Shown here: positions 15,260-63,233 of the stretch, piece after piece
How the letters are laid out: each line of letters opens with the position of its first letter
Numbering within the stretch: position 1 is the stretch's first letter
DNA from: Alphaproteobacteria bacterium
Lineage (GTDB): Bacteria; Pseudomonadota; Alphaproteobacteria; Sphingomonadales; Sphingomonadaceae
NCBI GenBank assembly: GCA_019232625.1
Contig: JAFANP010000047.1
Coordinates: 1-64,000, forward strand
DNA: 64,000 nucleotides
Direction: 5' to 3'
Made by a program: the position numbers and the translations under genes
The notes under the pieces: model-generated
The model's database searches: none
Seen by the model: the letters and a program-made list of their open reading frames with translations, nothing else
Told to the model about the DNA's origin: nothing

Positions 15260-15335
15260 GCCCAGGTAGCTCAGTTGGTAGAGCACGTGACTGAAAATCA
15301 CGGTGTCGGTGGTTCGATTCCGCCCCTGGGCACCA
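15260..15335 (+). tRNA. tRNA-Phe (anticodon GAA)
   Basis: A 76-nt cloverleaf. Acceptor GCCCAGG (15260-15266) pairs with CCTGGGC (15325-15331), then discriminator A and an encoded CCA (15333-15335). The D-loop is AGCTCAGTTGGTAGAGC, the anticodon stem CGTGA/TCACG with loop CTGAAAA giving anticodon GAA at 15293-15295, and the T-arm contains GGTTCGATTCC. The 3' 20 nt recur in degenerate form at 24192-24211, which suggests use as an integration site. Confidence 0.98.
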
Positions 15336-15485
15336 TCCTTCCGCGTCTACCCGGACGTGAGCCATGCTTCACCTCAGAGATTTCGGTTGCCGCGCGGCCG
15401 CAGCGGGACGCTGCCGCCCCGGGAGCAGTGCCGGTCGGCGATGCAGGTCCGAAGGGGTCGCAGCCCGGCGGCGCGAAAGGACGGG

Positions 15486-17351
15486 TCAGTCTCCCTGGAC
15501 GGGCTCAAATTCGGCGTCGACCACCTCCTCGCCACCGGCGGGGCGGTCGGATTCGGGCCGGCGCGTCGAGGCCTTGGCCAATGCCTCCGCCAGGCGGCGG
15601 GACGTCGCCTCCAACGCCGTTGGCGAGTCTCCCTGCACCGCGGCGCGGACGTCGGAGATCGCCTGCTCGATCGCCGCTCGATCCGCCGGCGCAATGGCTT
15701 CGCCGCTGGCGGCGAGCATTCGCTCGGCCTCGGCGATCCTCGCTTCCGCAGCGTTGCGGGCTTCGGTCAGTGCGCGCCGTTTCCTGTCCTCCTCCGCATG
15801 GGCTTCCGCGTCCCGGATCATCCGCTCGACATCGCTCTTGCTGAGCCCGCCCGACGCCTGGATCCGGATCTGCTGCTCCTTGCCCGTCTGCTCGTCCCTC
15901 GCCGAGACGTTGACGATCCCGTTGGCGTCGATGTCGAAGGTGACCTCGATCTGAGGCACGCCGCGCGGCGCGGGCGGGATTCCGACCAGGTCGAACTGGC
16001 CGAGCAATTTGTTGTCCGCCGCCATCTCCCGCTCGCCTTGGAAGACGCGGATCGTCACCGCATTCTGATTGTCCTCGGCGGTCGAATAGGTCTGCGACTT
16101 CTTGGTCGGGATCGTCGTGTTGCGGTCGATCATCCGGGTGAACACGCCGCCCAGAGTCTCGAGACCGAGCGAGAGCGGCGTGACGTCGAGCAGCACCACG
16201 TCCTCGACCTCGCCCTGCAATATGCCGCCCTGGATCGCTGCGCCGAGCGCGACCACCTCGTCCGGATTGACGCCCTTGCTCGGCTCCCTGCCGAAGATCT
16301 CCTTCACCTTCTCCTGGACCTTGGGCATGCGGGTCTGGCCCCCGACGAGCAGCGCTTCGTCGATATCGCCCGTTGCCATGCCCGCATCCTGAAGCGCGGC
16401 CCGGCACGGCGGCTCGGTCCGCTGCACGAGGTCGTCGACCAGCTCCTCCAGCTTGGCCCGCCGCAACCTCAGCTCGAGATGTTTCGGGCCGTTCTGGTCG
16501 GCGGTGATAAAGGGCAGATTGATCGTCGTCTCGAGCGCGTGGGAGAGCTCCACCTTCGTCTTCTCGGCCGCCTCGCGCAGACGCTGCAACGCCAGTCGGT
16601 CGCTGCGAAGATCGATCCCTTCCTTCTTGCGGAATTCCTCGGCGATCCAGTCGAGCACCCTCTTGTCGAAATCCTCGCCGCCGAGGAAGGTGTCGCCGTT
16701 GGTCGCCTTCACGTCGAACACGCCGTCGCCGATCTCGAGGATCGAGATGTCGAAGGTGCCGCCGCCAAGATCGTAAACCGCGATCTGGCCTTCGCCCCGT
16801 TTGTCGACGCCGTAGGCGAGCGCCGCCGCGGTGGGCTCGTTGACCAGGCGCTGCACGTCGAGGCCGGCGATCGTGCCCGCATCCTTCGTCGCCTGCCGCT
16901 GGCCGTCGTTGAAATAGGCGGGCACGGTGATCACCGCCTGCTCGACCTTTTCGCCAAGATAGCTCTCGGCGGTCTCCTTCATCTTGGCGAGGATCATCGC
17001 GGAGATCTGGCTGGGGCTGTATTGCTTGCCCCGCGCCTCGATCCAGGCATCGCCGTTCGGGCCCTCGACGATCTTGTACGGGACCAAGGCCTTCTCCTTA
17101 GCCACCGTCGGATCCGAATAGCGGCGGCCGATCAGCCGCTTGATCGCATAGACCGTGTTCTCCGGGTTCGTGATCGCCTGCCGCTTGGCGGCCTGGCCGA
17201 CCAGGATCTCGCCGTCGGCGGCGAAGGCGACATAGGAGGGAGTCGTACGCGCCCCTTCCTCATTCTCGATGACCTTCGCGTTGCCGCCTTCCATCACGGC
17301 GACGCAGCTGTTCGTGGTGCCGAGATCGATGCCGATAATCCTTGCTGCCAC
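15486..17351 (-). CDS. dnaK: Hsp70 chaperone DnaK (probable second copy)
   Basis: 621 residues from GTG 17351 with a strong RBS (AAGGAGA, 9 nt upstream). A complete Hsp70: phosphate-1 loop [14 protein letters not shown] (residues 5-18), [11 protein letters not shown] (about 168), phosphate-2 [12 protein letters not shown] (about 190), [10 protein letters not shown] (about 338), and the substrate-binding domain with [14 protein letters not shown] (about 388). The C-terminal lid is short and ends [10 protein letters not shown]. No dnaJ or grpE is nearby; the neighbours are stress proteins, so this is probably an accessory copy (inference). A TTGAC-N4-GTCAA palindrome lies 56 bp upstream of the start, suggesting control by the Crp/Fnr regulator at 19478. 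Confidence 0.95.
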
Positions 17352-17407
17352 GGCGAAGTCTCCTTGTCTGTCGGCGCGGAGGAAAGACGAGGCGGAGCGG
17401 ACAAACC

Positions 17408-17421
17408 TTGACGTTCGTCAA
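17408..17421. promoter_or_regulatory. Fnr/FixK-type box upstream of dnaK
   Basis: TTGACGTTCGTCAA is a perfect 14-bp palindrome apart from the two central bases. It lies 56 bp upstream of the dnaK start. It matches the boxes at 17981, 19331 and 22420 and the general Fnr/FixK layout TTGAN-N4-NTCAA. Confidence 0.7.
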
Positions 17422-17607
17422 TTTGGGCCATTCCCTCGCATTGGGCCTCGGCGGCAATCCCGACGCGCCGGCGGAGCGGCTGGATCGTTCGTCGTCGCAA
17501 GGCATCGCGCGGCCGCGCTCGGACGCCGGTCCGTCCCGGCTCTGCCGCCCGCGGCAGCGCGAACCCCGCCGAAGCGGTGCTGCCCGCCGCGGGCGGCACC
17601 GCCCCCT

Positions 17608-17907
17608 TCAGCGATACCGGAATTCCGGAAGGCGCTTGAGCTCCTCCTTAGAGGCATCGGGAAGGACGACCGAATCGCGATCGATCTGCAGATCGTCGAA
17701 CGAGATGGCAACCAGCTTCGAATCCAGGGCGAGAAAGCCGCCGACGGAGAGGATCGCGAAGTCCACGCTGTCCCCGACCAGCATCAGATCGTCGATCGTT
17801 CCGATCTTCTCCTCGGCGTCGTTCTCGACGGTCGCGCCGATCAGCTTGCTCGCCCGGGCCGCTTGCGCGACGATGGCGACGTCGACTTCCACCAGGGTCA
17901 CTTCCAT
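17608..17907 (-). CDS. PRC-barrel domain protein
   Basis: 99 residues from ATG 17907, chosen because GAGGAGACAG stands 5-14 nt upstream; a longer upstream frame has no RBS and a basic, non-conserved extension. The PRC-barrel core is visible: AARASKLIGATVENDAEEKIGTIDDLMLVGDSVDFAILSVGGFLALDSKLVAISFDDL. PRC-barrels bind RNA (RimM) or photosynthetic reaction centres (PuhA). Free-standing bacterial versions are common in stress and envelope settings without defined function. The gene lies between dnaK and the TMEM175-type gene on the same strand, with a box-like palindrome 73 bp upstream. Confidence 0.85.
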   Translation of the reverse strand: MEVTLVEVDVAIVAQAARASKLIGATVENDAEEKIGTIDDLMLVGDSVDFAILSVGGFLALDSKLVAISFDDLQIDRDSVVLPDASKEELKRLPEFRYR

Positions 17908-17980
17908 AACCTGTCTCCTCGTCCAGCCGGCGTGAGCGCCGCCTCGGCGCTCCCGGATATGGCGGCGTCGGGACCGCGCC

Positions 17981-17994
17981 TTGACGGCCGTCAT
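17981..17994. promoter_or_regulatory. Fnr/FixK-type box upstream of the PRC-barrel gene
   Basis: TTGACGGCCGTCAT, one mismatch (last base) from the perfect palindrome found upstream of dnaK and the DUF5335 gene. It is 73 bp before the PRC-barrel start codon, about 18 bp further than at the other genes. Confidence 0.55.
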
Positions 17995-18087
17995 CTTTCC
18001 GCGGGGCCGAGCGTCCGATGGAAGGCCCCGATATCCGGGAGCGCTGCGCCGCGACCCGACCGGCCGCCGGCAGGGCGTCGCGCGGTG

Positions 18088-18693
18088 CTAGGGCGGCGCC
18101 GCGTTCGCATCGGATTGCTGCAGGCTGTGCCACCGCTCGAAGCGCCGGTCCGGGATCAGCCAGACGCAGGAAACGCCGATGTAGAGCACAATGGCGATCC
18201 ATGGGGAGAAGAAGGCCGCCGGCACGCCGAGACCGTAGAGGGCGAAACTGACCCATTCCTTCCTGCGTGAGCCGACCACCGCCCGAATGCGCGATTCCGT
18301 GCCTTCCGCGAGGATCAACTCGCGCTCCAGCCAGATGTAGCCCGACGCCGCCAGAACCGTGACGACCCCATAAGCGGCGACCGGTTGCGAAGTGACTCCG
18401 GCAAGGCCGATCCAGCGGATGACGAAGGGCATCAGGGTCAGCCAGAAGAGGAGGAACAGATTGGCCCAGAGCGCCCGTCCGTTCACCCGGTTGGCCGTCG
18501 CGAGCATATGGTGGTGGTTGGTCCAGAAGATGCCGATGTTGATGTAGGCGAGGCCGTAGGCGGCCAGTAGCGGTATCGCGGGACGGATGGCCTGCCAGTC
18601 GCGGCTGGCGGGCACGCGCAGATCGAGAACCATGATGGTGATGGCGATCGCAAGGACCCCGTCGGTGAGCGCCATCAGCCGATCCGTCTTCAT
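18088..18693 (-). CDS. TMEM175/DUF1211-family membrane protein, putative potassium channel
   Basis: 201 residues from ATG 18693; GTG 18702 would add three. The first helix carries LTDGVLAIAITIMVLDLRVP (about residues 8-27), the family form of the F-S-D-G-V-x-A-I motif that lines the TMEM175 pore. About six hydrophobic segments follow, with a conserved histidine cluster FWTNHHHML (about 58). Bacterial TMEM175 proteins form tetrameric K+-selective channels. Minus strand, downstream of the DUF5335 gene with a 216-bp gap, and upstream of the PRC-barrel gene. No box-like palindrome was found directly ahead of it. Confidence 0.88.
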   Translation of the reverse strand: MKTDRLMALTDGVLAIAITIMVLDLRVPASRDWQAIRPAIPLLAAYGLAYINIGIFWTNHHHMLATANRVNGRALWANLFLLFWLTLMPFVIRWIGLAGVTSQPVAAYGVVTVLAASGYIWLERELILAEGTESRIRAVVGSRRKEWVSFALYGLGVPAAFFSPWIAIVLYIGVSCVWLIPDRRFERWHSLQQSDANAAPP

Positions 18694-18909
18694 GGCCGGC
18701 ACCGGCGGGAAATCGACGGACGCGGATCGGCGAGACGCGGTCTCGGCGAGTCGCTGCCACGGCCGTTCTCGAACTTCAGCGCCACAGGGGAGCCGGCTGA
18801 CGGCCTTTCTCCGGACGCTCCGCGGCGGCGGTGCCGGACGGCACCTCCGGTCGCTCGATTTGCGAAGGAGCGAAGCCAGGTCCGGTCGAAATTCCCGGAA
18901 GAACCGGGA

Positions 18910-19275
18910 TCATCGGGTACCCGCCGGCGATTCGGCCGCGGCCGGCGCCGGGAGCGGGAGGGAATCCTTGAGCCTGACGATATGCCGCCGTCCCTCGGCA
19001 TCGTCGATCGCGATCGCAACGATGCCCCCCACGTCATGATCGACGAAGATCGCGCCGGGGGATCGTATCCGATGATCGAGCGGGTCGAGCGCGATCTCGA
19101 TGAGATCGTTCCTCTTCTCGTAGGCGATGCCGATCAGCGGAGCCCATTGCGAGGCGATCTGGTCACCCAGATCGAGCGCAGCGACCTCGATTTCGGCCCG
19201 CTTTCCGATCAAATTCCGAGTGAGACCATCGAAGAAGGCACCCCATTGCGCCGGCTCGATCCGTTCCGCGGCCAT
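18910..19275 (-). CDS. DUF5335-family protein
   Basis: 121 residues. The sequence WGAFFDGLTRNLIGKRAEIEVAALDLGDQIASQWAPLIGIAYEKRNDLIEIAL fits the DUF5335 family, small soluble proteins of unknown function often found beside stress genes. The C-terminal 15 residues are Ala/Pro-rich. An RBS-like AAAGGAT lies 6-12 nt upstream of the ATG. A perfect TTGACGCCCGTCAA palindrome lies 55 bp upstream, between this gene and the divergent Crp/Fnr gene. No enzymatic motif is visible. Confidence 0.72.
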   Translation of the reverse strand: MAAERIEPAQWGAFFDGLTRNLIGKRAEIEVAALDLGDQIASQWAPLIGIAYEKRNDLIEIALDPLDHRIRSPGAIFVDHDVGGIVAIAIDDAEGRRHIVRLKDSLPLPAPAAAESPAGTR

Positions 19276-19330
19276 CGATCATCCTTTCGCACCTGATGCA
19301 CGAATGTGGCCGTTCGCACCGCGGCGCGCA

Positions 19331-19344
19331 TTGACGCCCGTCAA
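19331..19344. promoter_or_regulatory. Fnr/FixK-type box between the DUF5335 and Crp/Fnr genes
   Basis: TTGACGCCCGTCAA lies 55 bp upstream of the DUF5335 start and 133 bp upstream of the Crp/Fnr start. It could serve the divergent regulator too (autoregulation), but the spacing matches the DUF5335 side. Confidence 0.68.
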
Positions 19345-19477
19345 CGGGAGCGGGCCTCCCAAAGCTGGGGGCGAAATGTCGCGGATTGCCACATTCCCTA
19401 TAGTGCAGGCCCCGACTGGTCCCGGTGTCGGCGCGCGGGCAAGGCGACCCCCGAGGGAGGGTGGTTGAGGAGCCGTC

Positions 19478-20158
19478 ATGCGAGAGACTCCCGAGTGCGT
19501 CGAGCTGTTCGGACGCCTTCTCACTCGCGAAATTCCCTATGACGAAGCCGAGGCCCGGACGGCCATGATCGCGGCCGCGCGCGAGACACGCTGGCGCCGG
19601 AACCAGCCATGCGACGCGGTCGTCGCGCGAAGCAGCGTGGCCTGCGTCGTCGCCGGGGCCGTCCGCAAATTCGCCCTTCGGCCCAGCGGCCGAAGACAGA
19701 TCGTGGACCTGATCGTCCCTGGCGACTTTCTCGGATTTGGGCGGCCCGATCCGGCTTTCCTGCTAGAAGCCGTTTCCAACGATACGCGGGTCGCCTGCTT
19801 CACACGCGATCGAATCGAGCGGCTGACGGCGCGTTTCCCGCCAGTTTCCACGCTCATGCAGAGCTGCGCCGCCGACGCGATCCGGCGGCTCGAGCATCAC
19901 CTGCTCGTGCAAAGCCGGATCACGGCGAGGGAGAAGGTCCGGGCCTATCTCGCGGAAATGACCCGCCGCATGAAACCCGGCCGCGCCGAAACGGTCACGC
20001 TCCCCATCACGCGCTACGATATCGCGGATCATCTCGGCATCGCGGTCGAGACGGTGAGCCGCGCCATGACCGTGCTTCGCCGCCGCGGATCGATCGCGCT
20101 CAGGACTCCGCGGGACATCGAAATCCGCGACCCGTCGATGCTCGCCGAGGGTCGATGA
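19478..20158 (+). CDS. Crp/Fnr-family transcriptional regulator (FixK/NnrR-like)
   Basis: 226 residues. An N-terminal cyclic-nucleotide-binding-like beta-roll (about 20-120, with GRRQIVDLIVPGDFLGFG), a long dimerisation helix (about 122-155) and a winged helix (about 170-215). The recognition helix reads ETVSR (191-195); the E-x-x-S-R pattern of FNR and FixK contacts TTGA half-sites. The N-terminal iron-sulphur cysteine cluster of true Fnr is absent; single cysteines lie at 7, 45, 56, 107 and 130. Oxygen sensing by an Fe-S cluster is therefore unlikely. It sits in the middle of a gene group with four matching palindromes, so it is the natural candidate regulator of the group. The effector is unknown. 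Confidence 0.9.
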   Translation: MRETPECVELFGRLLTREIPYDEAEARTAMIAAARETRWRRNQPCDAVVARSSVACVVAGAVRKFALRPSGRRQIVDLIVPGDFLGFGRPDPAFLLEAVSNDTRVACFTRDRIERLTARFPPVSTLMQSCAADAIRRLEHHLLVQSRITAREKVRAYLAEMTRRMKPGRAETVTLPITRYDIADHLGIAVETVSRAMTVLRRRGSIALRTPRDIEIRDPSMLAEGR

Positions 20159-20173
20159 TCGGCCGCCCGGCGC

Positions 20174-22210
20174 TCACGGGGCGGCAAGCTCAGCGAGCAC
20201 GGCAAGTCGGATCGCCTCGGCGAGGTGCGGCGTGCCGAGGCGGTGGAGCATCCGGGTGCGATGGAGTTCGACGGTCCGAACGCTGATGCCGAGCCGGCGC
20301 GCGATCTTCTTATGGGGTTCGCCCGCGAGGAGCCCGTCGAGCACCTCCCGCTCGCGAGGAGAAAGGTCGGCAATCTTCCGCGCGGCCTCGGCGAACCTTC
20401 GGTTCGTTCCCGCAGAAGATCCCTTCTGCCGGTTCTCGAGCGCTGCGAACAGGCCGCGGGACAGTTCGGCCTGGAGAAGCTCGAGCCGCTCGCTGACGCG
20501 CTCATGCGCCTTCGTCTCGGCCTCGCGGGTCGCGCTTGCCTCCTGCAGCTCGCTGTTGCGCATCTCGACGACGAGCCTGAGACCTTGCTCGATCATCTTC
20601 CGCTCGGTGACGTCGAGCGCGACGCCTAGGAAGGATACCGGCCGTCCGTTCCGGAAGCGGGTCTCGCCGCGCGTCGCGAGCCAGCGTTCGACTCCGTCGG
20701 CGCCGAGCACGCGATACTCCGCCTCGTACACCCCGTCGCCCGCGGGATCATAGGCGCGCGCGACCGCTGCCTCGACCCGATCCCGGTCCTCAGGGTGGAT
20801 GCCGTCGAGCCAGACCTGGAGCGTGACCTTCGCACGGTCCGACAGTCCCCACATCATCCGGACCCGGTCGTCCCACTCCAGGCGACTCGTGCCGCCTTCG
20901 ATCTCGATCGAATAGAGACCGAGACCGGCGAGCCCGACGGCCGACTTCAGCCTCTCCTCGCTCTGCCGAAGGCGCTCCTCGGAGCGCTTCTCCCTGTCGA
21001 CATTCTCGATATAGGCGACCGCTCCGGCAACCTCCCGGTCGCGGCGGAAAGGCGCTGCGCTGACCCGGAACCAGCGGGTCTCGCCGCGATCGTCCGTGTG
21101 GAGGAAATCGAGCCCGGGGGCGACGACGTCCCCCCGAAGGGCCCTTTGACCCGGATAGTCGGAGGTCGCGATAGGCCGGCCGTCGGCGTAGTAGCCCTGC
21201 CACGATTCTCCCGCGGCCGGGTCGGCCGAAGGCATCATGTCGCCCCACAGCTTGCCGAGCGGCCCGCCTCGGAGCAGCAGCCTGCCGTCGCCGTCGAACA
21301 GCCCCACGCCGCCCGGAACCTGGTCGAGGATCGCCGCCAGGAACTGCTGGTTCTCGCGCAGCGACCTTTCCCGCGCATTGCGCTCGGTGACGTCGTAGCT
21401 GACGCCGACGATGCTGTCGGATCCGTCGTGATGGCGGCGCCCGCGAACCGCGATCCAGCGCCATTCTCCGTTGAGAAGGCGGACGGGGAATTCGAGCTGG
21501 ATATCCTCGCCCTGGTCCAGCGCCTCCCCGGCGCTCCCGTTGCCCGCGCCTTCCGCTTCGGGATCCATCGGCCGCCAATAGGCCTCGGCGGGCATCGGGC
21601 GCTCCTGAGGGCCCATTCCGAACAGCGCCTGATGCACCGCATCGGCCGTGATGAGACGCGTCTCGAAGTCCCATTCCCAGGTGCCGAGCCCCCCGGCCTC
21701 GAGCGCGAACCGGAAGAATTCCTCGGTCTCGCGCAGCGCCCGCTGCGCACGCCGGGAGCTCACGAGATCGGCTGCCTGATCGGCGAAGAGATCGGACAAT
21801 CGCAGCTGCGCCGCGTCCGGCCGGTACGGCTCCCGGAAAAGGGTGGTCAGCATGCCCAGCGGGCGCCCGGTCCCGCGCTCCTTCACGGCCGTGCAGCTCA
21901 GCCCGCGATAGCCGGTCTTCGCCGCGACCGAGCGGTGCGGCGCATAAGGCGCATAGGCCTCGACGTCCTCGACGATGACACGCTGCCCGCCGCGCGCGGC
22001 GTCGCGGCAGGCGGAGGGATCGGTCCCGTCGATGCAGCCGAAACGGTCGAGGAACTCCTGGCCGACCCCCCGGTGGGCGACGATGCGAAGCGTGCGCTGG
22101 TCGGAGTCGTAGAGCGCGATGTCGCCGAAGTCGGCGCGCTGCATGCTGATCGCGGCTTCGAGCAGCGGCTCGAGCAGGGGAGCGAGGTCGGCATCGTCCA
22201 CAGATCGCAT
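20174..22210 (-). CDS. GAF-PAS-PAS-PAS sensor fused to a LuxR-type DNA-binding domain
   Basis: 678 residues from ATG 22210 (MRSVDDADLAPL). A longer frame to 22402 adds low-complexity sequence. Domains: GAF (about 10-155, with CIDGTDPSACRDAARGGQRV), then three PAS/PAC units (about 165-285, 290-415, 430-555). The PAC ends read IVGVSYDVTERN and FLGVALDVTERK. A coiled-coil helix (about 555-610) precedes a LuxR/NarL HTH (about 615-672: LSPREREVLDGLLAGEPHKKIARRLGISVRTVELHRTRML). No transmembrane segment, kinase or receiver domain is visible, so signal and DNA binding would be in one cytosolic polypeptide. It ends 15 bp from the convergent Crp/Fnr gene. Ligands are unknown. Confidence 0.9.
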   Translation of the reverse strand: MRSVDDADLAPLLEPLLEAAISMQRADFGDIALYDSDQRTLRIVAHRGVGQEFLDRFGCIDGTDPSACRDAARGGQRVIVEDVEAYAPYAPHRSVAAKTGYRGLSCTAVKERGTGRPLGMLTTLFREPYRPDAAQLRLSDLFADQAADLVSSRRAQRALRETEEFFRFALEAGGLGTWEWDFETRLITADAVHQALFGMGPQERPMPAEAYWRPMDPEAEGAGNGSAGEALDQGEDIQLEFPVRLLNGEWRWIAVRGRRHHDGSDSIVGVSYDVTERNARERSLRENQQFLAAILDQVPGGVGLFDGDGRLLLRGGPLGKLWGDMMPSADPAAGESWQGYYADGRPIATSDYPGQRALRGDVVAPGLDFLHTDDRGETRWFRVSAAPFRRDREVAGAVAYIENVDREKRSEERLRQSEERLKSAVGLAGLGLYSIEIEGGTSRLEWDDRVRMMWGLSDRAKVTLQVWLDGIHPEDRDRVEAAVARAYDPAGDGVYEAEYRVLGADGVERWLATRGETRFRNGRPVSFLGVALDVTERKMIEQGLRLVVEMRNSELQEASATREAETKAHERVSERLELLQAELSRGLFAALENRQKGSSAGTNRRFAEAARKIADLSPREREVLDGLLAGEPHKKIARRLGISVRTVELHRTRMLHRLGTPHLAEAIRLAVLAELAAP

Positions 22211-22419
22211 ATGTGCACCTCGTCGTGGGTGCGACCATGAAGCTCCGCGCCGCCGCCGGCGACCACGTTCGGAAAAACGCCTCCAACAGGATCGGATTCC
22301 TGCAATGCGGCGGGTGCGCGAGTTGTTCCGCCCTTGGGACGCCGACGCCGGGCCCAGGCCCAGGGGGGCGGCGCTCTCTCTCCCGGGGCGTGGCCATTTC
22401 AACCCCGAACCTTCGGAAA

Positions 22420-22433
22420 TTGACGGCCATCAA
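22420..22433. promoter_or_regulatory. Fnr/FixK-type box upstream of hdeD-prx-dsbA
   Basis: TTGACGGCCATCAA, one mismatch in the right half-site. It lies 55 bp before the HdeD start, the same spacing as at DUF5335 and (within 1 bp) dnaK. It is also 210 bp upstream of the divergent GAF-PAS-LuxR gene. Confidence 0.65.
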
Positions 22434-22488
22434 CGAGCCGCGGCCGGCGACATGAGAGGCGGCGGCCACAATCTCCGGGAGACAGGGC

Positions 22489-23133
22489 ATGGCAACGACA
22501 TTCGACCGCGGCAACGTGCACGGGCGAGCGAGACAGGCGCTCCTGGCAAGCAATTGGTGGGCGGCGGCGCTGCGCGGCGTCTGCGCGATCCTGCTCGGAT
22601 CCATTGCCATCTTCGCGCCGGCTGTGACTCTCGTCGCGTTGGCGATGGTCTTCGCCGCCTATTCGCTCGTCGACGGCGTCTTCGCGATCGTCCTCGCGAT
22701 CCGCGGCGCTCGCCGGCACGAGCGATGGGGCTGGCTCGCCCTGAACGGCATCGGCTCGATCGCCGCGGCGGCGATCGCGCTCTTCTATCCCGCACTCACC
22801 GCGTTGGCCTTCGGCATCCTGTTCGCCGCCTGGGCACTCGTTTCCGGAGTGACCTCCATCGTCGCGGCCCTCTCGCTCGGCGACGATCACGGTCGCTGGT
22901 GGCTGCTGATCACGGGCCTCATCGCACTGATCTTCGGCCTCTGGGCGATGTGGGACATCAGTGTCGGGATGCTGGCTTTGTCCTATCTCGTCGGCTTCCA
23001 GGCCCTCCTCGCCGGGTTCGCCTTGCTCGCGCTCGCGTACCGGCTGCGGACGCGCCATGCCGAGAGCGGCGCTACGGCGGCGCCGGCCGCCCCATTTTCG
23101 GGAGCCCGGACGCAGGAGGCGCATCATGGGTGA
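22489..23133 (+). CDS. HdeD-family (DUF308) membrane protein
   Basis: 214 residues with six hydrophobic helices arranged in three pairs, the DUF308 pattern (NWWAAALRGVCAILLGSIAIF; WGWLALNGIGSIAAAAIALFYP; LLITGLIALIFGLWAMWD). In E. coli HdeD contributes to acid resistance at high cell density; the mechanism is not known. The C-terminus is a soluble tail (about 188-214). The ATG follows GGGAGACAGG. The gene overlaps the peroxiredoxin start by 8 nt, forming a three-gene operon with it and the DsbA-like gene. Confidence 0.88.
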   Translation: MATTFDRGNVHGRARQALLASNWWAAALRGVCAILLGSIAIFAPAVTLVALAMVFAAYSLVDGVFAIVLAIRGARRHERWGWLALNGIGSIAAAAIALFYPALTALAFGILFAAWALVSGVTSIVAALSLGDDHGRWWLLITGLIALIFGLWAMWDISVGMLALSYLVGFQALLAGFALLALAYRLRTRHAESGATAAPAAPFSGARTQEAHHG

Positions 23134-23611
23134 GATCCTGCGACCCGGCGCCAAGGCTCCGGACTTCGATGCGCCGGTCACTCCGGACCAGAAGCTGGCG
23201 CTCAGCGAGTTCAGGGGTCGTCGCGTGATCCTCGCTTTCTACCCCGCCGACTGGAGTCCGGTCTGCGGCGATCAGATGAGCCTCTACAACCTGGTCCTTC
23301 CCGAGTTTCGCAAGTACGGCGCGGAACTGCTCGGCATCTCCGCCGACGGGGCCTGGTGCCACCAGGCTTATGCCAAGGCGAACCAGCTGCACTTCCCGCT
23401 GATCGCCGACTTCCATCCGAAGGGGGAGATCGCCAGGTCCTACGGGGCCTATCGCGACAGTGACGGCGTGGCGGAGCGCGCCTTGTTCATCGTCGACGAG
23501 AGCGGTCACATCGCCTGGAGCCATCTTTCGCCGATCGCCGTCAATCCCGGCGCCGACGGGATCCTGGACGCGCTCGAGCGCATGCCGAGACTGGAGGCCG
23601 TCAATGCCTGA
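23126..23611 (+). CDS. peroxiredoxin (AhpC/TSA family)
   Basis: 161 residues, thioredoxin fold. The N-terminal motif APDFDAPVT (about 12) and the peroxidatic region YPADWSPVCGDQMSLY have the peroxidatic Cys at about residue 49 in P-V-C; Trp-Ser replaces the more common Phe-Thr before it. Another cysteine (GAWCHQ, about 87) could act as a resolving residue. It reduces H2O2 or organic peroxides using a thiol donor. The start overlaps hdeD by 8 nt and the end overlaps the DsbA-like gene by 8 nt, which implies coupled translation. The next gene could supply or regenerate thiols, though that is inference. Confidence 0.9.
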   Translation: MGEILRPGAKAPDFDAPVTPDQKLALSEFRGRRVILAFYPADWSPVCGDQMSLYNLVLPEFRKYGAELLGISADGAWCHQAYAKANQLHFPLIADFHPKGEIARSYGAYRDSDGVAERALFIVDESGHIAWSHLSPIAVNPGADGILDALERMPRLEAVNA

Positions 23612-24164
23612 GCTGCGATTTCCAATCACCGGGCAGGACCATGTGATCGGGTCCGCCGACGCCCCCGTGACGCTCGTGGAATATGGCGACTATCAGTGCC
23701 CGCATTGCCAGGCGGCGTGGCCCGAGGTGGAGGCGGTCCTTCGTCGTTTCGGGCGAAACCTACGCTATGCCTACCGGCATTTCCCCATCGCCACGGTCCA
23801 TCCGCTGGCCAAGCCGGCGGCGGAAACCGCGGAATTCGCCGGGGCGCACGGGCTGTTCTGGGAAATGCATTCGGCGATCTACGCCAATGGGCACCAATTG
23901 TCGGGCCCCACCCTGGCCGCGCTCGCAAGCGGGCTCGGGCTCGACGTCGCCGCGCTCGGTGACGCGCTCGAGCGGGGCAGCTATGCCGCCAAGGTCGACT
24001 CCGATCTCCTTGGCGGGATCCGCAGCGGCGTGAACGGCACGCCCTGCTTCTTCGTCAACGGCCGGCGGCACGACGGTCCTTACGAGGCGGCAGCCCTGTC
24101 CGCCGCCATCGAAGCGGCGCGAACCGACGCTGAGTCCCGAGTCGTGGGGATCGTCAGCGAATGA
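23604..24164 (+). CDS. DsbA-like thiol oxidoreductase
   Basis: 186 residues. N-terminal TLVEYGDYQCPHCQAAWPEVEAVLRRFG gives the active-site CPHC (about residues 33-36), and the cis-Pro loop is GVNGTPCFFVNGRR (about 150). The helical insertion typical of DsbA lies between. There is no signal peptide, so the protein is likely cytoplasmic, resembling FrnE/DSBA-type oxidoreductases rather than periplasmic DsbA. Last gene of hdeD-prx-dsbA. The island boundary (degenerate tRNA end) begins 27 bp downstream. Confidence 0.9.
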   Translation: MPELRFPITGQDHVIGSADAPVTLVEYGDYQCPHCQAAWPEVEAVLRRFGRNLRYAYRHFPIATVHPLAKPAAETAEFAGAHGLFWEMHSAIYANGHQLSGPTLAALASGLGLDVAALGDALERGSYAAKVDSDLLGGIRSGVNGTPCFFVNGRRHDGPYEAAALSAAIEAARTDAESRVVGIVSE

Positions 24165-24191
24165 CCCTGCGGGCTGCCTATTCATTTGTTT

Positions 24192-24211
24192 GATTCCGCC
24201 CTCGGGCACTA
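24192..24211 (+). repeat. degenerate copy of the tRNA-Phe 3' end (possible att remnant)
   Basis: GATTCCGCCCTCGGGCACTA matches the 3' 20 nt of tRNA-Phe (15316-15335) at 17 of 20 positions, in the same orientation. Bases immediately upstream (TTTGTTT) do not continue the T-arm. It may be the far attachment-site remnant of an island integrated at tRNA-Phe. No integrase gene remains between the copies, and three mismatches in 20 leave room for coincidence. Confidence 0.4.
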
Positions 24212-60935: not shown

Positions 60936-63233
60936 ATGGCCGACGAGGAAAGGCAGCCGACGCGGCTGCAGGTCGCGACGATGCGGCCCGAGGACAGCGG
61001 CCGCGGCCTTGCCCGGCTCCCCCGCCGGCTGATGAGCCAGCTCGAGCTCGCCGAGGGCGACGTCATCGAGATAGCGGGCAAGCGGGTCACTCCGGCCCGC
61101 GCCGTCGGCCCCTATACCGAGGACGAGGGCCTCGACATCGTCCGGCTCGACGGCTTGCAGCGCGCCAATGCCGAGATCGGCTCGGGCGACTTCGTCACGG
61201 TGCGCAAGGCCGAGTCGAAGCCGGCGCAGCGGGTCGTGTTCGCGCCGGCGCAGAAGAACCTGCGGCTGCACGGCTCGGCGCAGGCGCTGAAGCGTAGCTT
61301 CGGCATGAAGCCGCTCACCGCGGGCGACATCGTCGCCACCACCGGCCAGCAGCAGGTGCAGCGCGGCGACATACCGCCCGAGCTGCGCCAGATGCTCTAT
61401 GCCCCGGCCTACGCGCTTCAGGAGATACGACTCACCGTCATCTCCACCGCGCCCAAGGGCATCGTCCACATCGACGCCAATACCGAGGTGGAGCTTCGCC
61501 CCGAATATACCGAGGCGGCGGACCAGCGCCGGGCCGACGTCACCTACGACGATCTCGGCGGCATCGGCGCGACCATCGACCAGCTGCGCGAGATGGTGGA
61601 GCTGCCGCTGCGCTACCCGGAGATTTTCGAGCGCCTCGGCGTCGATCCGCCCAAGGGCGTGCTGCTCTACGGGCCTCCGGGGACGGGCAAGACCCGCCTC
61701 GCCCGCGCCGTCGCCAACGAGAGCGACGCCACCTTTTTCCACATCGCCGGGCCCGAGATCATGGGCTCCGCTTATGGAGAGAGCGAGCGGCGGCTGCGCG
61801 AGGTGTTCGAGGAGGCGGCCAAGGCGGCCCCGTCGATCATCTTCATCGACGAGATCGATTCGATCGCGCCCAAGCGCGGACAGGTTCAGGGGGAAACGGA
61901 GAAGCGCCTCGTCGCGCAGCTCCTCACCCTGCTCGACGGCCTCGAGCCGCGCCAGAACCTGATCGTCATCGCCGCCACCAACCGGCCCGAAGCGATCGAC
62001 GAGGCGCTGCGCCGGCCCGGCCGCTTCGACCGCGAGATCGTCATCGGCGTGCCGGACGAGCGCGGCCGGCGGGAGATTCTCGCCATCCACACCCGCGGCA
62101 TGCCGCTCGACGGAGGGGTCAACCTCCCCGAGCTGGCGCGGCGCACCTACGGCTTCGTCGGCGCCGACCTCGCCGCTTTGGTCCGCGAGGCCGCGATCGA
62201 GGCGGTCCGGCGCATCATGCCGAGGATCAACCTGGAGGAAGGGACGATCCCGCCTGAGGTGCTCGACACGCTCGCCGTGCACGGCGCCGACTTCGAGGAG
62301 GCGCTGAAGCGGGTCCAGCCCTCTGCCATGCGCGAGGTGATGGTCCAGGCGCCGAACGTCGGCTGGGCCGACATCGGCGGGGTCGACGCCGCGCGCGAGC
62401 GGCTGCGCGAAGGCGTCGAGCTGCCGCTGAAGCATCCCGACGCGTTCAAGCGCATGGGCATACGCCCCGCCAAGGGCTTCCTCCTCTACGGCCCTCCCGG
62501 CACCGGCAAGACCCTGCTCGCCAAGGCGACGGCGCGGGAGGCGGAGGCGAACTTCATCGCCACCAAGTCCTCCGACCTCCTCTCCAAATGGTATGGCGAG
62601 AGCGAGCAGCAGATCGCCCGGCTGTTCGCCCGCGCGCGCCAGGTTGCGCCGACCGTCATCTTCATCGACGAGCTGGACAGCCTCGTCCCGGCGCGCGGCG
62701 GCGGCCTTGGCGAGCCGCAGGTGACCGAGCGGGTGGTCAACACCATCCTCGCCGAGATGGACGGGCTGGAGGAGCTGGGCTCGGTGGTGGTGATCGGCGC
62801 CACCAACCGGCCGAACCTCGTTGACCCCGCCCTGCTCCGCCCGGGTCGCTTCGACGAGCTGATCTACGTCGCCGTTCCCGACGAGGAGGGCCGCCGCCAC
62901 ATCCTCGGCATCCACACGGCGAAGATGCCGCTCGCGGGCGACGTCGACATCGACAGCCTCGCCCGTCGCACCCCCCGCTTCACCGGCGCGGACCTCGAGG
63001 ACCTCGTCCGCCGCGCCGGCCTGTTCGCGCTGAGGAGCTCGATGGAGGCGAAGGAGGTCGGCATGGCCGACTTCGAGCGCGCCCTCGAGGAGACCCGTGC
63101 CTCCGTCACCGAGGAGGTGGAGCGCGACTACGAGCAGATCCAGGCGCGGCTGAAGCAGGACGCGATGAGCGCCGGCGCCGGCATCGGCTTCATCGCCCCC
63201 GGCATGCTCACCCCGCGCGGTCCGAAGGGCTAG
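60936..63233 (+). CDS. CDC48/p97-like double AAA+ ATPase
   Basis: 765 residues from ATG 60936 (MADEERQPTRL). N-domain of the double-psi-barrel type (about 10-180, RLPRRLMSQLELAEGDVIEIAG). Two complete AAA modules follow: D1 with GPPGTGKT (about 246), IIFIDEIDS (about 303) and sensor ATNRPEAID (about 349); D2 with GPPGTGKT (about 520), VIFIDELDS (about 577) and GATNRPNLVD (about 624). Archaeal VAT and eukaryotic p97 share this plan, using ATP to unfold or extract proteins. In bacteria the substrates are largely unknown. It carries the D1-D2 arginine fingers (RRPGRFDRE; RPGRFDE). Confidence 0.94.
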   Translation: MADEERQPTRLQVATMRPEDSGRGLARLPRRLMSQLELAEGDVIEIAGKRVTPARAVGPYTEDEGLDIVRLDGLQRANAEIGSGDFVTVRKAESKPAQRVVFAPAQKNLRLHGSAQALKRSFGMKPLTAGDIVATTGQQQVQRGDIPPELRQMLYAPAYALQEIRLTVISTAPKGIVHIDANTEVELRPEYTEAADQRRADVTYDDLGGIGATIDQLREMVELPLRYPEIFERLGVDPPKGVLLYGPPGTGKTRLARAVANESDATFFHIAGPEIMGSAYGESERRLREVFEEAAKAAPSIIFIDEIDSIAPKRGQVQGETEKRLVAQLLTLLDGLEPRQNLIVIAATNRPEAIDEALRRPGRFDREIVIGVPDERGRREILAIHTRGMPLDGGVNLPELARRTYGFVGADLAALVREAAIEAVRRIMPRINLEEGTIPPEVLDTLAVHGADFEEALKRVQPSAMREVMVQAPNVGWADIGGVDAARERLREGVELPLKHPDAFKRMGIRPAKGFLLYGPPGTGKTLLAKATAREAEANFIATKSSDLLSKWYGESEQQIARLFARARQVAPTVIFIDELDSLVPARGGGLGEPQVTERVVNTILAEMDGLEELGSVVVIGATNRPNLVDPALLRPGRFDELIYVAVPDEEGRRHILGIHTAKMPLAGDVDIDSLARRTPRFTGADLEDLVRRAGLFALRSSMEAKEVGMADFERALEETRASVTEEVERDYEQIQARLKQDAMSAGAGIGFIAPGMLTPRGPKG

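Follow-up and report, generated by a model that had tools for sequence, protein, structure and literature searches.

The DNA considered here, hereafter the window, comprises positions 1 to 64,000 of contig JAFANP010000047.1 (assembly GCA_019232625.1) from an alphaproteobacterium of the Sphingomonadaceae. At 15336-24211 it contains what is apparently, as judged from its sequence, a nine-gene stress islet inserted at a tRNA-Phe gene. The islet encodes a FixK-like regulator of the Crp/Fnr family and carries four near-identical palindromes of the form TTGACG-NN-CGTCAA, which are predicted to be the operators of this regulator. Genes were called with a simple codon-usage script that sometimes places starts too late. 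The islet and its borders comprise the following features:

15260..15335, plus strand: tRNA-Phe (gaa), found by ARAGORN; left border and likely integration site
15486..17351, minus strand: dnaK (Hsp70), GTG start (Pfam HSP70, E 4.8e-268)
17408..17421, no strand: putative operator 1, TTGACGTTCGTCAA, 56 bp ahead of dnaK
17608..17907, minus strand: PRC-barrel protein (Pfam PRC, E 8.2e-10)
17981..17994, no strand: putative operator 2, TTGACGGCCGTCAT, 73 bp ahead of the PRC-barrel gene
18088..18702, minus strand: TMEM175-family K+ channel (Pfam TMEM175, E 4.4e-26)
18910..19275, minus strand: DUF5335 protein (Pfam, E 4.1e-33)
19331..19344, no strand: putative operator 3, TTGACGCCCGTCAA, between divergent genes, 55 bp upstream of the DUF5335 gene and 133 bp upstream of the regulator gene
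19478..20158, plus strand: FixK-like regulator of the Crp/Fnr family, with V-E-T-V-S-R as recognition helix and without the cysteine cluster of FNR
20174..22213, minus strand: GAF-PAS-LuxR one-component regulator with at least two PAS stretches and a FixJ-resembling output domain (Pfam; FixJ matches)
22420..22433, no strand: putative operator 4, TTGACGGCCATCAA, between divergent genes, 55 bp upstream of hdeD and 206 bp upstream of the GAF-PAS-LuxR gene
22489..23133, plus strand: HdeD-like membrane protein (DUF308; NCBIfam HdeD match under its cut-off)
23126..23611, plus strand: peroxiredoxin (AhpC/TSA), prx, 81% identical to the orthologue in the relative G385 (see below)
23604..24164, plus strand: DsbA-like thioredoxin-fold protein
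24192..24211, plus strand: likely right border, a 20-bp direct repeat of the tRNA-Phe 3' end with 3 mismatches

The block shows the marks of a tRNA-borne island, namely a tRNA gene at one border, a repeat of its 3' end at the other and a deviating composition. The repeat lies just beyond the dsbA stop, and the mean number of chance matches was 0.00 in 100 shuffles. The GC content at third codon positions is 0.84 for the nine islet genes; in the rest of the window, 43 called genes have 0.92 (p 7e-6). The islet is presumably mobile. As each gene of hdeD-prx-dsbA shares 8 bases with the next, the three are read as one operon; the TMEM175 gene is perhaps transcribed together with that of DUF5335.

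The preliminary description of this DNA had proposed that the four palindromes define the regulon of the local Crp/Fnr protein. All four lie at the positions and in the form it gave, and the distances to the start codons (56 bp for dnaK with its GTG start, 55 bp for the DUF5335 gene and hdeD, 73 bp for the PRC-barrel gene) are as it stated. Within the window, five palindrome matches with at most two mismatches are found versus 1.48 expected, a number reached in 2 of 100 shuffles, and TTGANNNNNNTCAA occurs exactly three times versus 0.10 expected, a number reached in none of them. In the whole genome of the organism (G000; 3.6 Mb, 66 contigs), the exact TTGACGNNCGTCAA occurs twice, both times inside the islet. 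Allowing one mismatch, seven sites are found, four of them in the islet, and a backwards-pattern control gives one. The three others are internal to called genes, and one of these three also precedes, by 136 bp, the next gene of what is presumably a ribosomal-protein operon; among the sites scanned, intergenic sites of this kind are confined to the islet. Relative to the rate of these three background sites, four sites in 5.03 kb correspond to a Poisson p of about 1e-11. The genome-wide scan that the preliminary description had called for thus places the palindromes well above background. Chance palindromes are ruled out by the genome-wide counts together with the spacing and the conservation between genomes given below. 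The consensus sequences of HspR (HAIR) and HrcA (CIRCE) elements are unlike this 14-bp palindrome.

Conservation ahead of orthologues, the other check that had been called for, is found in two relatives despite a changed gene order. The first, G385, has an orthologue of the regulator (64% identical) at C1:1.868 Mb. A second locus, about 450 kb away, carries genes for DUF5335, HdeD-like (DUF308), BON-domain, DnaK, YfdX, TMEM175 and peroxiredoxin proteins in a rearranged order; identity to the window orthologues is 75% for DnaK and 81% for both TMEM175 and the peroxiredoxin, and the frame after prx is dsbA-like by eye. Four exact TTGACN4GTCAA sites are present in G385, the highest number in a sample of 396 genomes of the order. 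All four carry G at position 6 and C at position 9 (G6/C9) and all lie at these two loci. Exact or one-mismatch sites precede the DUF5335, BON, dnaK and TMEM175 genes by 58, 59, 60 and 56 bp, respectively, and the site ahead of prx lies 53 bp from a short upstream frame and 90 bp from prx itself. This 13-codon frame, located in the interval from operator to prx (L039 15006-15110) and with a stop that overlaps the prx start, begins with residues like the start of the window hdeD and is perhaps a remnant of it. Near the G385 regulator, a site with two mismatches lies 71 bp ahead of an aldo/keto reductase gene and another lies ahead of an alcohol dehydrogenase gene, the start of which is uncertain. 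An operator is also found 47 bp ahead of a gene (L037 14297-16045) encoding a fusion of a cyclic-nucleotide-binding (cNMP) domain and a pyridine-nucleotide-disulphide, thioredoxin-reductase-like domain. A tRNA-Ser gene stands beyond prx-dsbA in G385; a search of L039 for a 20-base repeat of its end, with five mismatches allowed, found none.

The second relative, G024, belongs to the same genus as G000 and lies outside the 396-genome sample. One of its contigs encodes a PRC-like fragment (by eye), DnaK (84% identical), DUF2267, YfdX, thioredoxin, universal stress protein (Usp), DUF5335 (54%) and DUF1931 proteins. Sites lie 56 bp ahead of dnaK, if its GTG start is placed as in the window, 58 bp ahead of both yfdX and the DUF5335 gene, and 55 bp ahead of the DUF1931 gene. 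The contig starts inside the PRC gene, the side where the order of the window would place the regulator.

The K+ channel had initially been counted in the set. Its TMEM175 orthologue in G385 has an exact site 56 bp ahead, but in the window the gene lacks one, the best candidate within 300 bp upstream having four mismatches.

In the 396 genomes, for which up to seven first-look candidates per genome were scored for the regulator and about 11 for the peroxiredoxin, the regulator (E<=1e-26), the peroxiredoxin (E<=1e-45) and a DUF5335 gene led by a site are each found in the same two genomes, G000 and G385. The exact site occurs in 59 genomes and its backwards control in about 40, none of which has more than one; a single exact site per genome is therefore near background. 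At least two exact sites are present in eight genomes, including both that bear the regulator (hypergeometric p 3.6e-4). Most of the other exact sites that were examined, at 11 loci, lie inside genes or have no start at 50-60 bp, G024 being the one clear exception. Among 118 relatives searched with the regulator (E<=1e-20), 12 genomes matched, 11 of them only at 33-39% identity with proteins that are mostly FnrN-type by their cysteines. Contig-collection scans with six and two peptide patterns found no relative of the regulator. As controls without the regulator, the DUF5335 genes of G063 and G088 have no such palindrome in the 3.3 kb examined; the gene beside them appears to be rhomboid-type.

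The anatomy of these promoters was compared over 17 site-gene pairs that represent 16 distinct sites, one being common to divergent genes. G6 is present in 17 of 17 pairs and C9 in 16, counts that are biased at positions 1-14 because the pattern used to collect the set gave preference to G6/C9 or TTGAY-RTCAA. An unselected dyad count agrees with them, since TGACG-N2-CGTCA is present in 18 out of 31 upstream regions from the islets, a set that includes divergent pairs with a common site, whereas any 5-base dyad reached at most 4 in 50 first-order Markov shuffles. The start codon lies 55-60 bp from the palindrome in 11 of the 17 pairs. Outside the palindrome, in a part of the sequence free of this selection, an A stands at position 38 in 11 pairs (binomial p 1.1e-5, uncorrected for 96 columns). 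Position 38 corresponds to -11 for a palindrome centre at -41.5. The palindrome is followed by G at +2 in 15 and by C at +3 in 13. A centre at -41.5 is the class II geometry of FNR, so that class II activation is likely from the layout of these regions. Plain sigma-70 -35 elements, which TTGACG resembles, are ruled out by the conservation of both half-sites and by the A enriched at -11 of an activator site centred at -41.5.

The same geometry bears on whether the regulator might instead repress, by sitting at -35 and blocking the polymerase. The sites would overlap the -35 region, and a putative Anr box of katA in Pseudomonas aeruginosa is centred at -29, according to the available excerpts of the papers used here for comparison (PMC1274295, PMC2908626, PMC9104804, PMC4974557, PMC8290217, PMC7713065). 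However, the position fits -41.5, where most of the mapped Fnr boxes of Sphingopyxis lie in the same excerpts, and the promoters, examined by eye, lack strong -10 elements, as expected for activated ones. Repression thus appears unlikely.

Activation would depend on a protein of the FixK kind. The best solved relative of the regulator is FixK2 (E 5.6e-23), and its best curated families are FnrL (1.2e-27) and FixK (2.5e-26), both far under the equivalog cut-offs. Its cysteines lie at 7, 45, 56, 107 and 130; those at 7, 45, 56 and 130 are conserved in the G385 orthologue. FNR, an oxygen sensor, binds its [4Fe-4S] iron-sulphur (Fe-S) cluster with four cysteines, an N-terminal C-x2-C cluster and a central residue, and FnrN-type relatives alongside have the C-x2-C that is absent here. 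The protein is therefore predicted from its cysteine positions to carry no Fe-S cluster, as had been proposed. According to the part of PMC2908626 consulted, the FixK subgroup comprises proteins closest to FNR/FixK that lack one or more of the Fe-S cysteines. The regulator would belong there, being nearest to FNR/FixK without the cluster and combining an E-x-x-S-R helix with an FNR-like 14-bp predicted target, TTGACGNNCGTCAA, ahead of genes. A further trait of the subgroup is expression under FixLJ control, and a protein with a FixJ-like output domain is encoded next to the present regulator.

Could ordinary FNR/FixK boxes, served by an FnrN-type oxygen sensor of the host, account for the palindromes, the local regulator being incidental? 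Their TTGA-N6-TCAA core fits the Fnr box of Sphingopyxis granuli TFA (TTGAc/t-N4-g/aTCAA, mostly centred near -41.5 in the published part seen), targets of the FNR, FixK and DNR groups are described as nearly identical in the excerpt of PMC2908626, and FnrN-type relatives with N-terminal cysteines are present in other genomes of the order. However, the HTH_Crp_2 family model finds no such protein above its cut-off, nor any other host FNR able to serve the sites, among the eight proteins of G000 and the seven of G385. The V-E-T-V-S-R helix is unique to the local regulator in the former and to its orthologue in the latter, the others having H-V-N-R, H-I-N-R, T-V-S-A, R-E-T-A-S-R or other helices. 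R-E-T-A-S-R occurs in one other G000 protein, and its arginine goes with CRP-type targets in the consulted literature. The G6/C9 pair is missing from the six other TTGAYN4RTCAA sites in G000. No typical FNR operon was recognised downstream of these six, and a Crp/Fnr gene whose helix is not of the FNR type starts 12 bp after one of them. In the published boxes compared, as far as the excerpts list them, G6 and C9 are joined in 0 of 18 for FnrL and 1 of 16 for FixK2. A host sensor is therefore a very doubtful explanation. Binding of the operators by the FixJ-like GAF-PAS-LuxR protein, which is encoded beside the regulator in the islet as a MEDS-LuxR protein is in G385 (in its place), is scarcely credible, as both the 14-bp layout, TTGA-N6-TCAA, and the placement at -41.5 are typical of FNR/FixK and the kind of sensor differs between the two genomes while operator and Crp/Fnr helix are unchanged.

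The preliminary description had also suggested that the extra G and C inside the palindrome may be the regulator's own signature. The bases themselves are real, as the pair counts and the unselected dyad count agree, but they are not private to this regulator: in G030, G067 and G073, which have no orthologue of it, the same box precedes hsp20, GlgB-like and PRPP-synthetase genes by 51-61 bp. In G030 it lies 51 bp ahead of hsp20. At the same locus (L040, G030 C4, 3202-13319) it is also found near Usp, phosphotransacetylase and acetate-kinase-like (by eye) genes, in a cluster that adjoins a histidine kinase gene, a FixJ-type response regulator gene and a Crp/Fnr gene with an E-T-V-C-R helix. The G030 cluster appears to be a parallel, low-oxygen-like case. 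In G067 and G073, from another family, the box precedes a GlgB-like gene by 52 bp and a PRPP-synthetase gene by about 61 bp (L041 13850 and 7151; L042 7154 and 13862). All five checked sites of the G030, G067 and G073 type have an A at -11; they are not five independent cases, because the sites of G067 and G073 are partly orthologous copies.

Taken as a whole, these observations are best explained, with good confidence, by a mobile islet of stress genes that brings along a FixK-type activator and its G6/C9-extended operator. Several points weigh against it. No integrase was found among the nine islet genes with Pfam, a scan from which short frames fell outside, and the right border repeat carries three mismatches. 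Only one other intact orthologue of the regulator was found; further ones may have been missed, because few first-look candidates per genome were scored. G024 has operators and no regulator orthologue was found in its assembly, which is 86% complete and in 420 contigs, and V-E-T-V-S-R is present in none of its six above-cut-off HTH_Crp_2 proteins. In G385, TTGACN4GTCAA with at most one mismatch occurs at 51 places versus 15 for the control, so that single one-mismatch sites are not rare there. The A at -11 is absent from 6 of 17 pairs, including the window dnaK and PRC-barrel gene, and the window hdeD has no good -10 hexamer by eye. Finally, the spacing is atypical for the PRC-barrel site (73 bp) and for three sites of G385 (47, about 68 and 71 bp).

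The initial claim of one local Crp/Fnr protein over the gene set stands nonetheless in its main part, at the level of sequence: site counts, conservation despite changed gene order and the lone V-E-T-V-S-R helix favour it. To this extent the regulon appears real. Neither the tRNA borders of the set nor the FixJ-type output domain beside the regulator figured in the preliminary description.

Several known systems, compared as far as the excerpts describe them, share some of these features. In the FixLJ-FixK2 regulon of Bradyrhizobium diazoefficiens, a FixK-type regulator, also the best solved structure match, acts through an FNR-like 14-bp box, and genes with FixK2 boxes include groEL5, hspC2, dnaJ and one for a universal stress protein. 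FixK2 is itself under redox control through C183. Unlike the islet operator, FixK2 boxes have C6 in 13 of 16 cases (7 of them with G9) and G6/C9 in a single one; in addition, the regulon observed here consists of a single small islet, and one sensor protein takes the place of the FixL and FixJ pair. The FnrN/FixK regulon of Sphingopyxis granuli TFA, from the same order, has similar boxes, mostly near -41.5, and its targets include uspA. However, both TFA proteins have the four Fe-S cysteines and their regulon is tied to anaerobic growth on nitrate. The tLST, or locus of heat resistance, is likewise a mobile island. It has in common chaperone, HdeD, thioredoxin-type and K+ transport functions, as well as YfdX, which is present here in G385 and G024. 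In contrast, none of the nine islet genes encodes ClpK/ClpG, FtsH, KefB, a small Hsp or DegP, dnaK being present instead, and the module of ClpK/ClpG plus small Hsp that characterizes the tLST is thus absent from them. The tLST has a Mer-like orf1 and is called constitutively expressed, whereas most units of the islet have a predicted operator for an islet-encoded FixK-type protein. Finally, for HcpR of two cyanobacteria the operator TTGACnnnnGTCAA has been predicted, further sites of this kind being absent from their genomes, and the regulator is divergent from its target; unlike the islet regulator, it belongs to another branch and goes with nitrogen-oxide genes (hcp, norB). The plain TTGAC-N4-GTCAA form is published for other organisms, in the papers as excerpted. 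No published description of the present system was found in a literature search outside which most subscription journals lay, nor was any literature on DUF5335.

Elsewhere in the window, a CDC48-type AAA+ ATPase with a CDC48_N domain, here in a sphingomonad, is encoded at 60936-63233, and a short fragment with RHS-repeat and bacterial-Ig matches lies near the contig start (2405-2929).

The regulation of the islet may be pictured as follows. A dimer of the FixK-like Crp/Fnr protein would bind TTGACG-NN-CGTCAA centred about 41.5 bp before the transcription start and would activate, in the class II manner, dnaK, the PRC-barrel gene, the DUF5335 gene (perhaps together with that of TMEM175) and hdeD-prx-dsbA. 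Two operators stand between divergent genes, with the regulator gene and the GAF-PAS-LuxR gene, respectively, on their other side, so that auto- or cross-regulation is possible. The GAF-PAS-LuxR sensor, encoded beside the regulator and FixJ-like in its output domain, probably raises the level of the regulator on a redox, oxygen or related signal, a step that would amount to a compressed FixJ-to-FixK cascade. That oxygen or redox state provides the signal is conjectured from the relation to FixK and from the FixJ-like neighbour. The dormancy or low-oxygen programme suggested in the preliminary description is likewise conjectural, and its low-oxygen role is not borne out by these observations.

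As the block has its own regulator and near-identical sites confined to its intergenic gaps, it is probably a self-contained, transferable stress programme. A stronger form of this proposal, for and against which we find the case evenly balanced, is an insulated circuit: a horizontally moved islet with a FixK-type activator and a G6/C9 operator before most units, in hosts without any other FNR-type protein found. It would predict no near-intact operator close to a broken remnant of the locus. Such a remnant is present on plasmid pTomTYG65a of Sphingobium TomTYG65 (AP027331.1, L035 18484-20393), where a PAS-LuxR stretch (76% identical over 223 residues) lies beside a regulator fragment. Both are broken, so this locus was probably present on the plasmid at one time. 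The PAS-LuxR frame breaks off within its output domain and bears a DnaK-like tail at its end (by eye), with groL next door. In 40 kb of this plasmid, TTGAYN4RTCAA with at most one mismatch occurs five times versus 2.65 expected, and the sole match to TTGACGNNCGTCAA at one mismatch lies about 15 kb from the remnant; no near-intact operator is thus seen close to it. If the circuit is insulated, acquisition of the islet would give a complete stress programme at once, with host regulation neither used nor disturbed.

An extended operator would agree with a preference of the regulator for TTGACGNNCGTCAA over its C6/G9 version and over TTGATNNNNATCAA. If these proposals are correct, the islet would be a clear natural case of a self-contained transferable regulon, with one activator, few near-identical operators and a cargo of chaperone, membrane and thiol-protection genes. 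It would offer a testable setting for DUF5335, for the bacterial TMEM175 channel and for the PRC-barrel protein. It could also help to explain how one FNR-like regulon is kept apart from another by the inner bases of the operator.

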